Shown: in pieces, positions 3,629-11,146 of the stretch | How positions within the stretch are numbered: the stretch's first letter is position 1 | Layout: each line of letters begins with the position of its first letter | Assembly (NCBI RefSeq): GCF_000473105.1 | Contig: NZ_KI421498.1 | Location: 248,001-312,000 of the forward strand | DNA length: 64,000 nt | Direction: 5' to 3' | DNA from: Phaeobacter inhibens DSM 16374 | GTDB lineage: Bacteria > Pseudomonadota > Alphaproteobacteria > Rhodobacterales > Rhodobacteraceae | Made by a program: the position numbers and the translations under genes | Notes under the pieces: model-generated | Databases searched by the model: none | What the model saw: the letters and a program-made list of their open reading frames with translations, nothing else | What the model was told of the DNA's origin: nothing

Positions 3629-4075
3629 TCACCAGTCGGCGCTGTCCATCCAGATGGTCACCGGGCCGGAATTGACCAGGGCAACCTGCATATCCGCACC
3701 AAACGATCCGCGCGCCACCGGTACGTCCAGCGCGGCAAGCTGATCGGCAAACCGGGTATAAAGTGCACGGCCCAGTTCAGGGGCGGCGGCATTGGAAAAT
3801 CCGGGGCGGTTGCCCCGGCGGGTGTCGGCAGCAAGGGTGAACTGGCTGACCACCAGCGCGCTGCCGCCAATATCCTTGACCGAGCGGTTCATCTTGCCCG
3901 TGTCATCACGAAAAATCCGCAGTTTGCTGATTTTGGCCGCCATCTGATCGGCTTGCGCTGCACTGTCACCTTCCATGGCGCAGATCAGGATCAATAGGCC
4001 GGGGCCGATATCGCCGATGACATCACCGTCGACACTGACAGAGGCTTCAGAAACGCGTTGGATCAGAGCACGCAT
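3629..4075 (-). CDS. dtd: D-aminoacyl-tRNA deacylase
   Basis: Cytoplasmic enzyme that hydrolyses D-amino acids (and glycine mischarged on tRNA-Ala) from tRNA, protecting translation quality. The 148 residues match the family's normal length. Family marks are the N-terminal [17 protein letters not shown], the catalytic [20 protein letters not shown] segment (residues about 79-98) and the C-terminal [11 protein letters not shown], a variant of the N-x-GPVT signature. It follows the nitroreductase gene by 28 bp on the same strand and is the last gene of the long minus-strand run. Confidence 0.95.
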
Positions 4076-4103
4076 AGTCTCTCCTATTCACTGGTCGGAG
4101 GCG

Positions 4104-4775
4104 TCAGTCGCGCCAGCTGGTAAAATCGCTCAATTCGGCGCGTTCGGTTCGGAATTGATTGGCAGGATGGTCCGGATCACCGTAGCCGAAGGACAGCGCA
4201 CAAAGGATATTGCGATCCTCAGGTATGTCGCAGAACTGATGTAGCATCGGGGCGTATGTGGCGACCGCAGCCTGCGCAATGGTCGCCACACCTGCGGCTG
4301 TCGCAGCAAGCATGAAACCGGTGACAAAGCCTCCGCAATCCAGCGCGCCATAGGGACCTAGCCCCTTCGGGCTGGTCAGAATGGCGCAATGGGGTGCGTC
4401 AAACAGGGTGAAATTGCGCATCATCTGTTGGTGAGATGCGGCGCGATCGCCGCGTTCGACACCCACCGCCTCATATAAGGCCCAGCCGCAGGCCTGACGG
4501 CGTGTCTTGTACTCGCCGCTGTAGCGTTCCGGAAACGGCAGATCCGGCGCAACGGGATCTTTCATGACCGCCTCCATCAACGCGGATCGCAGCGCGTTGG
4601 TGGCCGCACCGCTGAACAGGGTTACCTGCCAGGGCTGGGCATTGCACCAGGACGGGACCTTCTGCGCGCATCGCAAAATATCCTCGATCACCGCGCGGGG
4701 CACCGGCTCGGGACGAAAGGCACGACAGCTGTGGCGCTGACTGAACAGGGCATCAAGCGCGGGCAGAGTGGTCAT
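4104..4775 (-). CDS. Nitroreductase family protein
   Basis: Probable FMN-dependent NAD(P)H oxidoreductase of the nitroreductase fold, 223 residues, cytoplasmic. It shows the N-terminal RHSCRAFRPEPVP (the R-R/S-x-R-x-F signature that contacts FMN phosphate), CAQKVPSWCNAQPWQVTLF for the flavin/dimer region, and the C-terminal LSFGYGDPDHPANQFRTER. The start MTTLPALD is chosen because AAGGA lies about 9 bases upstream. A longer frame would run into the upstream gene. Such enzymes reduce nitroaromatics, quinones or enones, and the physiological substrate is not evident. It lies between the zinc-ribbon gene and dtd. Confidence 0.9.
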   Translation of the reverse strand: MTTLPALDALFSQRHSCRAFRPEPVPRAVIEDILRCAQKVPSWCNAQPWQVTLFSGAATNALRSALMEAVMKDPVAPDLPFPERYSGEYKTRRQACGWALYEAVGVERGDRAASHQQMMRNFTLFDAPHCAILTSPKGLGPYGALDCGGFVTGFMLAATAAGVATIAQAAVATYAPMLHQFCDIPEDRNILCALSFGYGDPDHPANQFRTERAELSDFTSWRD

Positions 4776-4830
4776 GGCGGATCCTTGATTTCTGACATCA
4801 GTAAGTGGACATGAGGGCGAGCCTTGGCTG

Positions 4831-5982
4831 TCAACGCGATCCGAAATACGCCACAGCGCCGCCAAGGATCAGTGCCAGGATAACGGCCGATGCAATCTTC
4901 CACGCGGAGTAAGGGCGTTCCCCCTGTACACGGCCCGATTGCCCGTTGACCACAAACCGGTAGGTTTTGCCACGGTACTTGTACGCGGCGAGCCAGACCG
5001 GCAGCAGCACATGTTTGAATGTGATATCGGAGAAATTGCTGTCGATATGTTCAATGCGCTGTCGATCCCCACCGATGTCAAAACGCACGTCACGTTCAAT
5101 CACCCGGCGCATCCGCGCGTTTGCTTCGCTGTAACCGTCGGCCAGCTCCACTGCATAGGCCTCGGCCCGGAACCCGGCCAGATACTGCGGCTGATAAGGT
5201 TCCAGCGCGGACAGATCCCAGGGTTCCAACGCGTCGGTGTTCTTTTTCGGCAGGCTTTTGGAGGCCAGCACCAGCACATCATCGAAAAACCGCTGGACCC
5301 GACCCGTGACTGGCCGCCAACGCACCTTGGGCACTTGGCGGGATTGGCGCTTGCCATCGACCATGACGGTTTCGGTGACATAATAGACCGTGCCGCGCTG
5401 GCCGCGATATTGCGACCGGGTTTCGGCGTCAAAGGTCCAATAGGGGACATAGATCCCGTCCATACGCCGCCCCTTGCGGGCGTATTGTTGCAGGCCGTTT
5501 GGGGCGAACCACAGCTGACCCAGCCAGTCTGACATGGCCTTATGGGCGCTGCGCTCATCAAAGGCGAAGGGCAACACACCCTTTGGCTTGATGTGACGGT
5601 GGGTGCCGGTATCGGTCACCATAGGCGTGGCGCAGAAAGGACATTCGCCCGCATGGTCCTTTGGGTCCAGCTCCACCTGGGCCGCGCAATTGGGGCAGCG
5701 CAGGACGCGGGTTTCTTCCATGTCGGCCTCTGCCAGACCGGACGACAGGGCGGTCTCGAAATCCAGTTCGCGCAGGCTGCCACCGCGCCAAGGACCGGAA
5801 CGTATGGTTTCCTGATGGCCGCAATGATCGCAGGTCAGCGTGCCGTTCTGCGGGTCATAACGATAGTCTGCGCCGCATTGTTCGCAAGGGAACCGGTGTT
5901 CTGCCGACTGAGCGTGGGCGCCGGAGGACGCAGGGGGCACGGCAGTGAGCGGGCCGGGTGGCGGCGGTGGGGGTTGGGTCAC
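4831..5982 (-). CDS. Double zinc-ribbon membrane-anchored protein (often mis-named primosomal/helicase-like)
   Basis: A 383-residue protein of unknown function. After a proline-rich N-terminus there is a TFIIB-like zinc ribbon with C33, C36, C51 and C54, and a second ribbon with C96, C99, C114 and C117. A Trp/Tyr/Arg-rich beta domain follows (PYWTFDAETRSQYRGQRG, then VLLPVWLAAYKYRGKTYRFV). A single C-terminal membrane helix (about 363-380) precedes the end GSR. The arrangement suggests a cytosolic or membrane-surface assembly factor anchored by its tail. Related zinc-ribbon proteins sit beside SPFH proteins in other bacteria (for example ydjG/ydjI next to pspA in Bacillus subtilis, from memory), and here too an SPFH gene lies two genes upstream. 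It has a 9 bp gap to the cytochrome gene. Confidence 0.85.
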   Translation of the reverse strand: MTQPPPPPPGPLTAVPPASSGAHAQSAEHRFPCEQCGADYRYDPQNGTLTCDHCGHQETIRSGPWRGGSLRELDFETALSSGLAEADMEETRVLRCPNCAAQVELDPKDHAGECPFCATPMVTDTGTHRHIKPKGVLPFAFDERSAHKAMSDWLGQLWFAPNGLQQYARKGRRMDGIYVPYWTFDAETRSQYRGQRGTVYYVTETVMVDGKRQSRQVPKVRWRPVTGRVQRFFDDVLVLASKSLPKKNTDALEPWDLSALEPYQPQYLAGFRAEAYAVELADGYSEANARMRRVIERDVRFDIGGDRQRIEHIDSNFSDITFKHVLLPVWLAAYKYRGKTYRFVVNGQSGRVQGERPYSAWKIASAVILALILGGAVAYFGSR

Positions 5983-5991
5983 GGGGGAGCC

Positions 5992-6519
5992 TCAGAGATA
6001 CTTGTGTAGCAGTTTCGGCACCATGATGCGCCGGGCGTTGTCCTTCAACAGGAAATGACGCCAAAGATGAAAGACCCCGTGCAGCACAATGACGATGAGC
6101 AGCGCATCAAAGGCGATTTCATGCAGGTCTTCAGCCAGTTCATGCAGGTTGCGGCTGCCCGCCGCAGGGTTGATCGGCACAACCCCAAAAGCACGGATCG
6201 CAAAGGGCGCCAGCATCCCGGCCAGCGCGCCGGTTGCAACCATAATCGGCAGGCCGATTTGCAGAACACGATGGTTCAGCCCATGGAACCGCTTGGCCCA
6301 GCCGGGCAGTTTGGGACCGGCGCGCGCGGCTAACCCATTGCGCAGATAGATTGTGGTCCAGATCAGCACGACCAGCGCTAGGATCAACCCAACCCCGGCA
6401 TAGGTGGCCAACGCCAGCCCAGGGGCTGCGCTGTTTTCCTCCGGCTCCACCAGGTAGAAGTAGACGATAAGAGCGAGGCTCAGCCAGCGGAGCCATTTGA
6501 GCGCACTGCGTCGGATCAT
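5992..6519 (-). CDS. Cytochrome b561-like integral membrane protein
   Basis: A 175-residue protein with four predicted membrane segments (starting near residues 10, 32, 91 and 138). It resembles the b561/Ni-hydrogenase cytochrome b fold. Histidines in or near the helices, in HGLNHRVLQIGLPIMVATG, NLHELAEDLHEIAFDALL and HGVFHLWRHF, would supply two b-haem ligands pairing across helices 2 and 4. Such proteins pass electrons from quinol to a periplasmic partner or to superoxide. The gene is embedded in the SPFH/zinc-ribbon/TelA run and ends 9 bp before the zinc-ribbon gene, so a shared membrane role is plausible but inferred. Confidence 0.82.
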   Translation of the reverse strand: MIRRSALKWLRWLSLALIVYFYLVEPEENSAAPGLALATYAGVGLILALVVLIWTTIYLRNGLAARAGPKLPGWAKRFHGLNHRVLQIGLPIMVATGALAGMLAPFAIRAFGVVPINPAAGSRNLHELAEDLHEIAFDALLIVIVLHGVFHLWRHFLLKDNARRIMVPKLLHKYL

Positions 6520-6605
6520 GACTGCTTAATCCTTCGTGGCAAGGAGGCTGCGTCGGTCGTGAGAAAGGGCGCCGATGATCACAGCGCCCTTGGGTCGGTT
6601 TCATG

Positions 6606-7793
6606 TCAACCCGCAGGAGGGGGCGGAGGCGGTGGTGGGGGCATGATGGTAAAGAGCTGCGCCAGTTCCAGCACATCGCCAGCTGTCTTCCAGCCGTCCT
6701 GACCCGGGGTCCAAACCAGGCTGTCCCGGCGCAACCCGCCCTCCTGCGCCATCCGACCAAGGCGTGCTTTGGAGAAGGGGCCGGTGGTCTGTCCATTCTC
6801 GGCGATGTGCCAGACGTGTTCCACCGGCGGCGGCGGCGGGGCCACCGGGGCGGTCATCGGTGCGGTTTGCGGGGCAGCGGGTGCGGGGCGTGCGCCCCAA
6901 GGACCGGCGGGCTGACCCGCTGCCTGACCGGCGGCACCCGGTTGCGCCATCTGCGCCATCTGTTGGGCCATCGCCATGCCCATTCCCATGCCCATACCAG
7001 CCCCCATGCCGCTGTTGGGCGTCTGGGCTGCGGCGGTCATCGCCTCGGCGGCAGAGAACTGCGTGTAGCGGCCAAGATCACCGACGATCCCCATCTGGGT
7101 GCGCTTGTCCAGCGCCTGTTCGACCGCGGCGGGCAGCGAGATGTTCTCGATATAAAGCTCCGGGATCGCGATGCCGTAGTCTGCAACCGTTGCGGAAATC
7201 TCTGCTGCGACCAGCTTGCCCAGATCCGCAGTATTCGCCGCCATGTCCAGCACCGGGATGCCGGACCCTGCCAGCACCCGGCTCGCCTGTTGAACGATAA
7301 TGTTGCGGATCTGGAAGGAGATTTCATCCATGGTGAATTCACCATCGGTGCCGACGATCTCGGTCAGGAACCGGGCCGGGTCCACCACCCGGATGCTATA
7401 GGTGCCAAAGGCACGCAAGCGAACGGGACCGAACTCCGGGTCCCGCGCCATGATGGGGTTCTTGGTACCCCACTTCAGATCGTTGAACCGGGTGGTGTCG
7501 ACGAAATAGATCTCGGACTTGAACGGCGACTGAAACCCGTGGTCCCAATGCTGCAGCGTCGTCATGACTGGCATGTTGTTGGTCTCTAGCATGTAGAGTC
7601 CGGGGGTAAAGACATCCGCCAGCTGGCCTTCATGGACAAAGACAGCAGCCTGACCTTCGCGGACCGTCAGCTTGGCGCCGTATTTGATCGCATGGCCTTC
7701 ACGCTCAAATCGCCAGACCAGCGTGTCATTGGTGTCGTCGGTCCAGTGGATGACGTCTATGAACTCTCCCTTGAGAAAGTCGAAAATACCCAT
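6606..7793 (-). CDS. SPFH-domain protein with C-terminal GYF_2 domain
   Basis: 395 residues. Residues about 1-240 form an SPFH (band-7/stomatin-like) domain of the YdjI type: MGIFDFLKGEFIDVIHW, LTVREGQAAVFVHEG, GPVRLRAFGTYSIRVVDP and YGIAIPELYIENISLP. It lacks an N-terminal membrane helix, so it would bind membrane peripherally. A linker rich in Gly-Met, Gln, Ala and Pro follows (about 250-325), then a GYF_2/DUF4339 domain (about 327-380, GPFSKARLGRMAQEGGLRRD, WTPGQDGWK) and a polyproline end. GYF-type domains bind proline-rich ligands; its own tail and the polyproline N-terminus of the zinc-ribbon neighbour are candidate partners. The start was chosen because AAGG lies 9 bases upstream. A methionine 9 bases earlier would touch that site. 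Confidence 0.9.
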   Translation of the reverse strand: MGIFDFLKGEFIDVIHWTDDTNDTLVWRFEREGHAIKYGAKLTVREGQAAVFVHEGQLADVFTPGLYMLETNNMPVMTTLQHWDHGFQSPFKSEIYFVDTTRFNDLKWGTKNPIMARDPEFGPVRLRAFGTYSIRVVDPARFLTEIVGTDGEFTMDEISFQIRNIIVQQASRVLAGSGIPVLDMAANTADLGKLVAAEISATVADYGIAIPELYIENISLPAAVEQALDKRTQMGIVGDLGRYTQFSAAEAMTAAAQTPNSGMGAGMGMGMGMAMAQQMAQMAQPGAAGQAAGQPAGPWGARPAPAAPQTAPMTAPVAPPPPPVEHVWHIAENGQTTGPFSKARLGRMAQEGGLRRDSLVWTPGQDGWKTAGDVLELAQLFTIMPPPPPPPPPAG

Positions 7794-7848
7794 TGTCTTC
7801 ATCCTTGTTCGGCGATGCCAGAGCATCGGGTCGGCAAATGCGGGGCCG

Positions 7849-8823
7849 CTACTGCGGCTCCCCCATGATATCATAGGCGATTGTTTGCACGATCGGGCGG
7901 GCCTCCTCGGCGGACATGCCGGGGCGCAGGCGTGGATCATACAGGATCTGCAGAAGCTTCTCGTCCTGGCTGGTGAGCAGCGCAAATTCATCGTCATCGT
8001 TGAAGATTGAGGGACGCGCGTGCGGGCTGTCGTTGCGCAGGCCAAGGCCTTGAGCGATTTCCTCGTGGATACAGCTGCGCCGTGCCAGATCCGGATGCTC
8101 TGCGCGAATGAGCGCCACTCCGCGCATATAAGACGAGGGATCCGCCTGCAGACCTCCGGCGCGCACCAGACAATAATAGCTTTGCGGCGGATTGGAGAAG
8201 ACCTGAAGATCGGCGTCGCTGATCGACGGCAGGATTTCCCGCACCCGTCCGGCCACATAGGCACTGTCATCTGCGCCAGCGAAGATCACGTTGAAATTGG
8301 CCCGTGCGCGGCTGGTTGTCATACTGATCGGATGACCGGTGATCCGGGCCAGACGGGCGGCATATGCCTCCAACGTTGAGCGGTCTTTCTGCTGCTGTTC
8401 GGCGCTGACCGAGGGGCCGAAGTCGGCCCTCAGGCGCACCGGCCCGTCCCACCGCCCCAGCGCGCCGGAGGTGCGCAGATTGCCGCTCCCGTATTCATCG
8501 TAGAAGGCGATCTGCTCAAAGTTCCTGCGCAGATCGTCAGCGTCATAGGGCGTCTCCGGCCCGCCACCATCTGTCCGCAATAGCCCACGGGTGAGCAGAT
8601 CCTGCTGCAGGGCACCATAGTAGCGAGCCAGGCGCTGGCTCTCGACGGAGGGCGGTTTGGGCTGCGGGGCCAGGTTGGCAGGGCGCGTTGGCGGCACCAG
8701 CGAGGTGCGCTGAGCCAGGGGATCGCAGCCCATCAGGAGCGCAGTCCCGGTCAGCGCGCCGACAAGCACCGGCACCATTCGTCGCTTTCGGGCGCGCTGC
8801 CATATGCGGTGGGTCTTGCTCAT
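7849..8823 (-). CDS. DUF2927 lipoprotein with zincin-like motif
   Basis: 324 residues. An Arg-rich N-terminus is followed by a hydrophobic stretch ending in a lipobox (LTGTALLMGC, Cys at about 33), so the protein is probably lipidated and exported. The body matches DUF2927. It contains CIHEEIAQGLGLRND near residue 257, which resembles the HExxH-like helix of secreted zincin peptidases but with Gln in place of the second His, so activity is uncertain. Its start overlaps the TelA stop by 4 bp (ATGA), which is direct evidence of operon coupling with telA. It lies upstream of the SPFH gene. Confidence 0.85.
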   Translation of the reverse strand: MSKTHRIWQRARKRRMVPVLVGALTGTALLMGCDPLAQRTSLVPPTRPANLAPQPKPPSVESQRLARYYGALQQDLLTRGLLRTDGGGPETPYDADDLRRNFEQIAFYDEYGSGNLRTSGALGRWDGPVRLRADFGPSVSAEQQQKDRSTLEAYAARLARITGHPISMTTSRARANFNVIFAGADDSAYVAGRVREILPSISDADLQVFSNPPQSYYCLVRAGGLQADPSSYMRGVALIRAEHPDLARRSCIHEEIAQGLGLRNDSPHARPSIFNDDDEFALLTSQDEKLLQILYDPRLRPGMSAEEARPIVQTIAYDIMGEPQ

Positions 8824-10016
8824 GCGGTGCCGGGAACCGCCGTAGCAGCTGTGTCGCCAACACCGTCTCGGCGTGCCTTGGCTGCGGCGAGGGTGTCGCG
8901 CAATTCTGCTTCCATCTTTTTCAGATCTTCCTCAGCTGCGGCGCGTTTGGCCTTGCCCTCGTCAGCGATCTGCAGGCTATCCTGAATGGTGCCGATCAGA
9001 TCGGCATTGGCCTGTTTCACCGCTTCGATGTCGAAAACGCCGCGCTCCATTTCCTGACGGATTACCTTGTTGGTTTCGCGTAGGTTGGCGGCGTTTGAGG
9101 TCAACAGCTCATTTGTCAGGTCATTGGCATCGCGTACGGCCGCCGCTGCCTCTGCCGAGCGCTGGATGGTGACAGCCTGCGCCAGCTGGGTCTCCCAAAG
9201 CGGCACGGTGTTGACCAGAGTAGAGTTGATCTTGGTCACCAGGGATTTGTCATTTTCCTGCACCAAACGGATTGAGGGCAGTGACTGCATGGTGACCTGA
9301 CGGGTCAGTTTCAGATCATGCACCCGGCGTTCCAGATCGTCGCGGGCGGCGCGTATGTCGCGCAACTCCTGCGCGCGCATCACCTGATCGCTCTCAGCCG
9401 CAGCGGCGACAGCGGCTTCCAGGGCGGGGATCTCATTGGCATCCAGTTCGGCCAGCTTGGCCTCACCTGCTGCAATATAGAGCGCCAGTTCGTCATAGAA
9501 GCTCAGCGTTTTGGCATAGAGCAGATCCAGCGATTTGATATCTTTGAGCAGCTGATGCTCATGACCGAGGAGATTATCGGTGATGCGGTCGATCTGGCCC
9601 TGCACATCCTCAAACCGGGCGGTGAATTTGGCAAAGGGTGCGGCGCGACCCAGCAGACGCTCCCAGAAGCTGCGCTTGCGGCGCACGTCCAGTTCGGACA
9701 CGGAAAAGCCACGGATGGTGGTGACGATATTGCGCAGACTGTCGCCGGCGGGGCCGACGTCTTTGTTGCGCACATCCGTCAGCATAGCCTGGCTAATCTG
9801 CTGCAATTCAGCCTGTGCGCCAGAACCGAAATTGATGATCGAGTTGCTGTCCGACATGTCGATCTGCGCCATGCGGGACTTGATATCGGCGCTGGTGGCC
9901 TCATCCGCCTGTTCCAGCGACTGGATCTCCGCCACCGGTTCCGGCAGCTCAATCGCGGTGATCTCGGAAACTATTTGCGTCTCCTTGGCGGCTTTCTTCT
10001 GGGTCGTCTCGGACAT
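8820..10016 (-). CDS. Toxic anion resistance protein, TelA/KlaA family
   Basis: 398 residues, cytoplasmic, mainly alpha-helical and coiled coil. It shows the TelA family pattern: SIINFGSGAQAELQQISQAM, VSELDVRRKRSFWERLLGRA, RQVTMQSLPSIRLVQENDKS and WETQLAQAVTIQRSAEAA. Family members are linked to tellurite, nisin, cephalosporin and other envelope-stress resistance, with no enzymatic activity established. In Bacillus subtilis the TelA homologue yaaN lies beside xpaC, and the same pair occurs here with XpaC 22 bp upstream. I chose the start MSETTQKK; a longer frame begins inside xpaC. The gene symbol is left blank because tellurite resistance itself is not shown. Confidence 0.93.
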   Translation of the reverse strand: MSETTQKKAAKETQIVSEITAIELPEPVAEIQSLEQADEATSADIKSRMAQIDMSDSNSIINFGSGAQAELQQISQAMLTDVRNKDVGPAGDSLRNIVTTIRGFSVSELDVRRKRSFWERLLGRAAPFAKFTARFEDVQGQIDRITDNLLGHEHQLLKDIKSLDLLYAKTLSFYDELALYIAAGEAKLAELDANEIPALEAAVAAAAESDQVMRAQELRDIRAARDDLERRVHDLKLTRQVTMQSLPSIRLVQENDKSLVTKINSTLVNTVPLWETQLAQAVTIQRSAEAAAAVRDANDLTNELLTSNAANLRETNKVIRQEMERGVFDIEAVKQANADLIGTIQDSLQIADEGKAKRAAAEEDLKKMEAELRDTLAAAKARRDGVGDTAATAVPGTA

Positions 10017-10038
10017 GTGCAAATTCCTTATGGCTGTG

Positions 10039-10956
10039 TCAGCGGGTGTCCAGATGAACGCCCTCGCGCTGCAAACGATCCCGCAGCACGTCGATTTCAA
10101 CGGTTAGATCGGTGCGATCCTCCAGCAGCATCTTGCGGGTGCGGGCGGCGAAATTCTGTTCGAGGTCAGTCAGCAGGGCCAGAAAATCCTGCCGGGCCTG
10201 AGTGTCGCCGCTGCGGGTATAGATATCGGCGAATTTGATGGTCGCATCGCGCGCCCCCATCAAATAGACGGTGAGGTAGCGCCGCGCGCCGGTCAGATCG
10301 CGGGGGTCTTCCTCAACTGTACGAAAGAGGTCGCGCGCCACCTCCTGAAAGGCCTCAACCTGCTGCTCGACCTTGCGGTCGCGGGCGCGCAGGGCGGCAT
10401 CCTTCATTGCGGAGAGATAGGTTTCGGCCTCGTCCACTACACGGGCAACGCGGTCACGTTGGAAATCATCAATGCCTTCAGTGCCCTTGTCGCGCAGGGG
10501 ATCAACGCCAAAGGCCGCCAGATGCAGGCCAGTCGCCGCAGCGGCATAAATCAGCGCGCTGAGGGCGCCGGGGTCCTGCCGCCAGACAGCAAACAAGGCG
10601 CCGATACCGCAGAGCAGCGCCGCCAGGATCTTGCGTGGCAGGGCAGGGCGGCGGGCAACCTTGCGATCATCATAGGCGGCTTCAGCCCGCAGGCCATCGC
10701 GCAGCAGATAGGCCGACCCGGCCCATGTCGCTGCGGCAAGCAGGCCAAACGCCAGACCCGCCGCGTCCGAGAAGACAGACATCAGGACCACCAGCCCCGC
10801 GGGCAGCGCCATCAGATTGGCGCGCATGCCGACTGGATCAACTTTGGCGCTGCGATAGCTGTTGGCGCTGGAGGTGGTGTGGTCGGAGGTGGGGGCTTTA
10901 TCTGCCCCTGTGTCGCGGCCATCAGGGCTGTATTTGCCGCCAAAACGCTGTGCCAT
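10039..10956 (-). CDS. XpaC-family protein (5-bromo-4-chloroindolyl phosphate hydrolysis family)
   Basis: 305 residues. The N-terminal third is polar. Two pairs of hydrophobic segments follow (MALPAGLVVLMSVF / GLAFGLLAAATWAGSAYLL and ILAALLCGIGALFAVW / LSALIYAAAATGLHLAAF). A cytosolic helical domain ends the protein (VARVVDEAETYLSAMKDAAL, YLTVYLMGARDATIKFADIY). The layout and C-terminal domain match XpaC. The original indolyl-phosphate phenotype does not define its biochemistry. The start has a perfect GGAGG 8 bases upstream, which overlaps the stop of the small membrane-peptide gene. It pairs with telA directly downstream. Confidence 0.88.
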   Translation of the reverse strand: MAQRFGGKYSPDGRDTGADKAPTSDHTTSSANSYRSAKVDPVGMRANLMALPAGLVVLMSVFSDAAGLAFGLLAAATWAGSAYLLRDGLRAEAAYDDRKVARRPALPRKILAALLCGIGALFAVWRQDPGALSALIYAAAATGLHLAAFGVDPLRDKGTEGIDDFQRDRVARVVDEAETYLSAMKDAALRARDRKVEQQVEAFQEVARDLFRTVEEDPRDLTGARRYLTVYLMGARDATIKFADIYTRSGDTQARQDFLALLTDLEQNFAARTRKMLLEDRTDLTVEIDVLRDRLQREGVHLDTR

Positions 10957-10960
10957 GGGG

Positions 10961-11035
10961 TTAGCCTCCGACCAGCCAGCCGGTTGCCAGGCCAATCAAC
11001 AGGATCAGCAAGGCCACAAAGGCGAGTTTCTGCAC
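10961..11035 (-). CDS. 24-residue single-helix membrane peptide at the head of the xpaC-telA operon
   Basis: A very short frame with a GTG start preceded by a GGGGG-type ribosome site about 8 bases upstream. It encodes MQKLAFVALLILLIGL followed by ATGWLVGG and TAA, one hydrophobic helix with a single Lys at the cytoplasmic end. The stop codon lies 4 bases before the xpaC ATG, and the xpaC GGAGG site sits inside its last codons, as expected for translational coupling. It could be a small membrane subunit or a leader peptide. No homologue is known to me, and the amino-acid pattern and coupling are the only support. Confidence 0.55.
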   Translation of the reverse strand: MQKLAFVALLILLIGLATGWLVGG

Positions 11036-11146
11036 GTCTGTTCCCCCAAGATGAGCGCTGCAAGCAACTGGAAACTTAGGATATGCAGCGTCATCTTGCT
11101 AGGGGGAACTCTGAAATCGTGGACGCAACTTGTTGTCGCGAGCGGC

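Follow-up and report, generated by a model that had tools for sequence, protein, structure and literature searches.

An operon of Rhodobacteraceae joining XpaC–TelA to an SPFH–zinc-ribbon pair: a candidate membrane-maintenance system

Two described gene sets come closest to the gene run considered here, which occupies positions 11035 to 3629 on the minus strand of a 64,000-nucleotide stretch of the Phaeobacter inhibens DSM 16374 genome (hereafter the window). The first one is the pspA–ydjGHI set of Bacillus subtilis, in which an SPFH–zinc-ribbon pair is tied to PspA. According to the accessible part of one study, PspA requires YdjI, YdjG and YdjH at the membrane (Scholz et al. 2021, PMC8581546), and YdjG is described, in what is available of another, as made of two zinc ribbons, an uncharacterised domain of NTF2-like fold and a transmembrane (TM) segment (Ravi et al. 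2024, PMC11237479). The second one is the xpaC–telA (yaaN) pair of Firmicutes, for example Listeria lmo1966–1967 and Lactococcus llmg_1115–1116, in which XpaC directly precedes TelA and which turns up in envelope-stress responses. In the accessible text, the Lactococcus xpaC-like and telA1 genes are induced 10.3-fold and 3.4-fold in the CesSR envelope response, and deleting both partly impairs growth when membrane proteins are overproduced (PMC3139573). Disruption of telA in Listeria is stated to raise susceptibility 4-fold to nisin and 2-fold to tellurite (Collins 2010, as cited in PMC12791056, accessible part).

Both sets have a counterpart in the window. The core of the locus consists of a microprotein, XpaC, TelA, a DUF2927 lipoprotein, a YdjI-type SPFH/GYF protein and a tail-anchored double-zinc-ribbon protein. 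XpaC stands directly before TelA as in Firmicutes, but the pair is here joined to an SPFH–zinc-ribbon module, a partner that the accessible parts of the Firmicutes papers do not describe. As in B. subtilis, the YdjI-type SPFH gene lies near the gene of a TM-anchored protein with two zinc ribbons, a cytochrome b561-type gene standing in between. Unlike the B. subtilis set, the operon carries XpaC–TelA, DUF2927 and the microprotein, and Pfam searches of its proteins in the window gave no match to PspA/IM30 or to the TPM domain of the YdjH partner. That most of the family members sampled retain an operon coupling both modules would point to TelA being able to take PspA's place, and the TelA question would become testable in genetically tractable roseobacters. 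The features are as follows:

11077..11108, minus strand: two-block cis-element, possible promoter or operator, TTCCCCCTAG-N18-CCTA
10961..11035, minus strand: 24-residue single-TM microprotein MQKLAFVALLILLIGLATGWLVGG, GTG start with GGGGGA upstream
10039..10956, minus strand: XpaC-type membrane protein, hydrophobic segments followed by the PF10112 domain
8820..10016, minus strand: TelA, helical and without hydrophobic segments (Pfam, hydropathy, model)
7849..8823, minus strand: DUF2927 lipoprotein, predicted pseudo-metzincin (Pfam, lipobox MGC-D, predicted fold)
6606..7793, minus strand: YdjI-type SPFH protein (Band_7_1) with GYF_2 domain and C-terminal polyproline tail (Pfam)
5992..6519, minus strand: cytochrome b561-type membrane protein, accessory (Pfam)
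4831..5982, minus strand: double-zinc-ribbon protein, putative YdjG-type receptor, C-terminal TM segment 363–381 (Pfam, hydropathy)
4104..4775, minus strand: nitroreductase-family gene, frequent neighbour (Pfam)
3629..4075, minus strand: dtd, D-aminoacyl-tRNA deacylase, housekeeping neighbour (Pfam)

The first-pass annotation had read this region as seven genes in a row on one strand, overlapping by 4 bases or separated by a few to 86. The gene run is real and Pfam recovers every family named, all on the minus strand, namely XpaC (PF10112, 8e-28), TelA (9e-108), DUF2927 (4e-64), Band_7_1 SPFH (2.8e-100), GYF_2 (3e-19), cytochrome b561 (4e-9), zinc ribbon (6e-9), nitroreductase (2e-28) and D-Tyr-tRNA deacylase (3e-56). 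The spacing also agrees with the gaps derived from the coordinates of the open reading frames (ORFs), which are 4, 22, -4, 55, 86, 9, 55 and 28 nucleotides in gene order. The number of genes has to be corrected, since nine ORFs lie head to tail between 11035 and 3629 once the 24-residue ORF (10961–11035) is counted. The microprotein, the degenerate metzincin character of DUF2927, the cis-element and the occasional presence of a TerC-like gene had all been overlooked. An rsuA-like gene (S4 and pseudouridine synthase domains, Pfam) lies upstream of the run, as does a gene which we take, from its sequence, to be tadA-like. Terminator-like sites in the window are no more frequent than chance would give (8 against 8.0 expected), and the same holds for the matches of a sigma-70 promoter scan; an Rfam search gave no match at gathering scores.

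Linkage of the two modules

Conservation was examined in 106 loci from what is taken to be Rhodobacteraceae in the wide sense (the family, in all counts below) and in 26 loci from other families, annotated with profiles built from the window proteins and their matches. The nearest named relatives of the window TelA, on which this family name rests, belong to Phaeobacter and other roseobacters. Excluding the family loci too near a contig end, 99 of 104 have xpaC immediately ahead of telA in the same orientation, as in the window, and the corresponding linkage figures are 86/92 for DUF2927, 86/92 for SPFH and 84/92 for the zinc-ribbon gene. All five genes are kept in 76 of the 92 family loci with room downstream, XpaC not being required where the upstream sequence was shorter than 1.5 kb. 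A separate set of 80 named loci, 69 of them at least 18 kb long, was made of the best TelA matches, hence of close relatives in which TelA is present by construction; XpaC, TelA and DUF2927 are each found in 69/69 of the long ones, SPFH in 68/69 and the zinc-ribbon gene in 67/69. The neighbourhood survey that the first-pass annotation had called for thus places the co-occurrence far beyond one genus. Its notion of the whole set as one unit does not hold, b561 being a minority accessory and both nitroreductase and dtd variable neighbours.

The association is also seen at the level of gene presence. TelA was found in 105 of 120 family genomes. Among alphaproteobacterial genomes it is above cut-off in 32/385, and in 16 of the 17 which carry a strong (at least 200 bits) YdjI-type SPFH gene (hypergeometric P of about 1e-18, uncorrected for kinship, 5 of the 17 being from the family of the window). 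The two genes adjoin in 12 of these 17 genomes.

Such linkage might reflect two independent modules sharing a neighbourhood, and perhaps a promoter, with no common machine. This explanation, which the separate occurrence of each module elsewhere would favour, is regarded as unlikely. XpaC, TelA, SPFH and the zinc-ribbon gene stand together, without DUF2927, in 7 of the 26 loci outside the family, spread over five other alphaproteobacterial families, and neither rsu, tadA nor dtd was found near the modules there. Within the family, 13 of the 18 loci that lack a nearby rsu or tadA have XpaC, SPFH and the zinc-ribbon gene together with TelA, as do 64 of the 70 loci in which rsu or tadA is near. 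Synteny alone is therefore an insufficient explanation. The window genes also overlap or lie at most 86 nucleotides apart, with terminator-like sites at chance frequency. A Paracoccus plasmid carries TelA, DUF2927, SPFH and the zinc-ribbon gene, XpaC not being annotated.

Genes for b561, nitroreductase, TerC and carbohydrate kinase count as accessories or as neighbours. A b561 of the window's kind occurs in 15/92 family loci by profile and in 16/69 named loci, and a b561 match was obtained for 17 of the 45 ORFs scanned in the spacer between SPFH and the zinc-ribbon gene (44 of 47, plus the window); its status as a core gene was rejected on these counts. Nitroreductase is present in 50/69 and dtd in 59/69 named loci.

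The SPFH–zinc-ribbon pair and the proposed function

The SPFH and zinc-ribbon genes form a YdjI/YdjG-type pair as judged by sequence, which bears out the pairing suggested at first pass. The zinc-ribbon protein has eight cysteines arranged as four CxxC pairs, each conserved in 90% or more of 97 homologues, and its single hydrophobic segment is the C-terminal one (363–381), whereas SPFH has none by hydropathy. The comparison was made with an Enterococcus plasmid, where SPFH, a zinc-ribbon homologue and TPM follow one another in a ydjGHI-like set without annotated pspA. The zinc-ribbon protein of the window is newly recognised as a full-length homologue of the protein encoded there between the SPFH and TPM genes, the alignment (27% identity, E 7e-36) extending from ribbon to TM segment; the comparison was with this Enterococcus protein rather than with B. 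subtilis YdjG itself. The two SPFH proteins align weakly (22%, E 2e-12), and the Enterococcus one has a zinc-ribbon match where the window one has its GYF domain. This GYF domain was the part matched when solved structures were searched by sequence.

A proline run is present in the SPFH tail in 180/180 SPFH–zinc-ribbon pairs (163/163 distinct tails). Docking of the two proteins through GYF and polyproline was considered and not used as evidence: the N-terminus of the zinc-ribbon protein has a proline run in only 57/180 pairs, no such tail is present on the SPFH proteins of Comamonas and Enterococcus, and the regular expression used for GYF missed domains that Pfam detects. On the Comamonas plasmid, the SPFH protein (L308:6591-7691) has a helix-turn-helix domain instead of GYF and adjoins a zinc-ribbon gene. 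At two further loci (L212 and L213), a divergent YdjI-type SPFH gene is followed by two zinc-ribbon-like proteins, which we presume to resemble DUF4178; no TelA lies nearby.

Both halves of the operon have been linked to membrane stress in the accessible parts of the papers cited (PMC8581546; PMC3139573; PMC12791056), in line with the theme proposed at first pass, and the operon therefore joins two pairs that each point to membrane stress. The reading towards which we lean, on balance, is that of an inner-membrane complex for envelope stress or membrane maintenance, which would work like B. subtilis PspA–YdjGHI with TelA–XpaC in the place of PspA. The YdjI-type SPFH protein would be held at the membrane by the tail-anchored double-zinc-ribbon protein, acting as a YdjG-type receptor, and this platform would organise TelA, together with XpaC as its membrane partner, at the inner membrane face under envelope load, much as YdjI, YdjG and YdjH bring PspA to the membrane in B. 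subtilis. The DUF2927 lipoprotein would supply a periplasmic input in the family of the window, and the tiny TM protein would probably assist XpaC. From genomic context and the analogy with B. subtilis, we infer a joint function and a physical complex; the operon would be induced by stress, with TelA standing where PspA does and DUF2927 having a sensing role.

Several observations weigh against this membrane-maintenance reading. The SPFH–zinc-ribbon pair was not found in the fetched stretch at 19 of the 26 TelA loci outside the family, and within it SPFH was not found in 6/92 loci and the zinc-ribbon gene in 8/92. Conversely, the pair lacks a neighbouring TelA at three alphaproteobacterial loci (L199–L201), two of whose genomes carry TelA elsewhere, and stands alone on Vibrio, Comamonas and Tsukamurella plasmids. 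No TelA was found within about 1.5 kb of SPFH in the four loci inspected from Pseudomonadota other than Alphaproteobacteria, where the zinc-ribbon gene lies beside SPFH in three and the contig ends before it in the fourth. The AlphaFold model of TelA is poor (predicted local distance difference test, pLDDT, 68.3; predicted TM-score, pTM, 0.51), the TelA sequence set comprising 53 of 71 relatives and the window. Foldseek gave no significant fold for it (best E 0.098), and no profile similarity with PspA was detected (hhalign 0.7%). The genome of the window also holds a PspA-like gene (54 bits). Finally, the cis-element described below is found in only 83/155 loci, with 28/78 when one locus per genome is taken and 3/14 among TerC-bearing loci.

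With such a profile score (20 TelA against 4 PspA sequences) and so weak a model, homology of TelA to PspA/ESCRT-III was rejected and the parallel kept as a functional analogy. Absence of PspA was likewise dropped as an argument, PspA_IM30 being above cut-off in 23/120 family genomes. It is spread over TelA-less (3/15) and TelA-bearing (20/105) ones, so that there is no mutual exclusion. Of the four proteins with which solved structures were searched by sequence, two gave weak matches only, the best being 0.062 for TelA and, for XpaC, 0.0076 with a transporter that aligns with the hydrophobic region. By hydropathy XpaC has hydrophobic segments at 44–73, 106–124 and 131–149, up to four in all, ahead of its PF10112 domain.

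A dedicated operon for resistance to toxic anions (tellurite or another metalloid), in which SPFH and the zinc-ribbon protein would merely support a resistance membrane complex, appears quite unlikely. Ter-type systems combine TerC and TelA, and 18 family loci (L089, L104, L136 and 15 others; one representative was tested) have a TerC-like gene ahead of xpaC, whereas the window copy is without TerC, TerC being the ter gene looked for in relatives. The TelA family itself, the plasmid relatives annotated as KlaB or toxic anion resistance, the frequent nitroreductase neighbour and the tellurite effect in Listeria point the same way. However, that effect is larger for nisin than for tellurite (PMC12791056, accessible part) and the induction in Lactococcus came from membrane-protein load (PMC3139573, likewise). 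No transporter or metal regulator was detected by Pfam among the core genes of the window. In addition, TelA is carried by 105/120 family genomes and, in 70 of the 88 loci with enough flanking sequence, has rsu or tadA close by, so that maintenance fits better than a niche role in metal resistance.

A different TelA arrangement is seen in other alphaproteobacteria (L067, L073, L081 and L082), where TelA, an exported vWA-domain protein and XpaC follow one another; a solute-binding-like protein comes next in three of these four loci.

The DUF2927 lipoprotein

The metzincin zinc-site motif is HExxHxxGxxH. DUF2927 proteins have at the corresponding place a conserved segment, C-x-H-E-E-x-x-Q-x-x-G-L-x-N-D, invariant in 61 aligned proteins (60 of 63 candidate relatives, plus the window) except for its N, which is nearly so. 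In the window protein EExxQxxGLxND spans residues 254–265. When the metzincin motif is read one residue on, Glu, Gln and Asn replace the three zinc-ligand histidines and Glu255 keeps the catalytic position, the register having been set by motif and glycine rather than by residue-by-residue structural alignment.

The AlphaFold model from these 61 sequences is good (pLDDT 87.2, pTM 0.80). Matrix metalloproteinases, karilysin included, are the best 19 and 47 of the 50 Foldseek matches listed from the PDB, the remaining ones being two ADAMTS4 and one unrelated glycosidase. Among the matches listed, the best E is 2e-3, none being at or below 0.001, and target TM-scores for the catalytic domains are about 0.5–0.67. 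The active-site helix of the model (245–259) ends two residues ahead of the motif glycine, Gly261. Searching solved structures by sequence gave no match for DUF2927. The domain is thus newly modelled as a matrixin-type metzincin in which the three zinc-ligand histidines are replaced; it resembles matrixins in predicted fold and differs from them in its motif and in being a bacterial lipoprotein. DUF2927 thereby acquires a predicted fold, and there is ground for expecting its protease activity to have been lost.

EExxQxxG...D is present in 170 of 171 distinct operon DUF2927 proteins and the canonical HExxHxxGxxH in none of the 171; none was seen either among 30 DUF2927 loci sampled across the class. 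Of these 30, 25 are outside the operon type, with EExxQxxGxxND in 22; L336 and L338 differ at one position and L337 gave no motif. The histidine preceding EE is not conserved outside the operon type. Since the zinc ligands are missing from the metzincin fold, DUF2927 is probably a periplasmic ligand-binding sensor or adaptor and not a protease. Inactive metallopeptidase homologues are described as binding partners or scaffolding complexes in the accessible part of a review (PMC11266112). An active periplasmic protease with a non-canonical metal site, degrading damaged envelope proteins, is very improbable, the matrixin-like predicted fold and the invariant Glu255 notwithstanding, as the zinc-ligand positions hold Glu, Gln and Asn.

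A lipobox was matched in 148 of 171 distinct homologues, the next residue being D in 45 and E in 32. In the window MGC is followed by Asp, a residue which after the lipobox Cys means inner-membrane retention in E. coli. DUF2927 is present in 58/385 alphaproteobacterial genomes, only 8 of which have TelA above cut-off, and it is therefore seen as a recruited part of the operon. The genome of the window carries a second DUF2927 gene (G000:C6:1393240-1393851, in a 500-residue open frame), away from its sole TelA.

The microprotein and its upstream element

Ahead of xpaC, a small hydrophobic ORF ending beside the XpaC start was found in 166/166 loci with a placeable start, by a loose test in which the most hydrophobic ORF was chosen. 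A strict microprotein motif is found in 155 of 182 family loci, against 1/182 on the reverse strand. These loci mix unnamed and named records, some genomes being present twice; counted as distinct, they are 148 of 175, and the motif is present in 78 of 102 unnamed loci taken one per genome. A homologue could be recognised by eye in 13 of the 27 loci without the strict motif, where the script had flagged 16 (L103, L152 and L178 were not counted). Most family loci encode a single-TM form of 24–30 residues; some have a longer two-TM form of about 70 residues, of which one was tested and gave no Pfam family. Outside the family, the strict motif was not found in 7 loci where the XpaC start is uncertain, and under looser criteria some of them show small hydrophobic ORFs.

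Judging from codon patterns, the microprotein is under purifying selection. Codon differences cluster at third positions, and the ratio of nonsynonymous to synonymous differences (pN/pS) is 0.335 and 0.236 in the two main length classes, against 1.1–2.7 in other frames. It stays low (0.349 and 0.208) without the C-terminal codons shared with the xpaC Shine-Dalgarno sequence. A conserved microprotein, easily missed by automatic annotation, is thus added to the operon. In the window (11030–11120, minus strand), a TTCCCCC block can pair with the GGGGGAA Shine-Dalgarno sequence of the microprotein. A hairpin sequestering its start was rejected: z is -2.9 in the window, but below -2 in only 10/80 relatives (mononucleotide shuffles).

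About 80 nucleotides upstream of the microprotein lies TTCCCCCTAG-N18-CCTA, putatively an operator or a promoter of unusual type. In 75 of 155 relatives (69 of 148 distinct) its first block, TTCCCCCTA, occurs no more than 220 nucleotides ahead of the microprotein motif, the shuffled mean being 0.1, and the second block follows at a constant offset of 28 nucleotides in 64 of the 69 distinct copies. The 83 loci with the element (at most two substitutions, at most 220 nucleotides upstream) compare with a total of 94 matches on both strands of 2.9 Mb. The genome of the window has one exact copy; with two mismatches allowed, it gives 32 matches for the reversed pattern versus 8 forward. Across 61 genomes, a looser pattern searched exactly gave 13 forward matches, one each in 13 genomes, all in the family, and its reversed control 10 matches in 9 genomes. 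The control being about as frequent, the genome count is unremarkable, and it is the position of the element that is remarkable: in 7 of the 8 genomes with a known TelA position the copy is located some 1.2 kb ahead of TelA, that of G400 lying elsewhere.

A more elaborate form of the membrane-maintenance reading, tentative and rather doubtful as a whole, would be a trans-envelope stress machine of Rhodobacteraceae. TelA–XpaC would be a sequence-unrelated analogue of PspA/ESCRT-III recruited by the SPFH–zinc-ribbon platform, the lipid-anchored pseudo-metzincin would report periplasmic peptides or misfolded proteins, the microprotein of 24–30 residues would tune XpaC, and a near-unique promoter or operator would control the whole in many members.

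In the literature searched, which left most subscription papers outside, no paper was found with TelA and SPFH as whole words and none with DUF2927. One record (L273) titled Enemella evansiae, which we take to be an actinobacterium, carries the roseobacter operon with a TelA 81% identical, and its label looks wrong.

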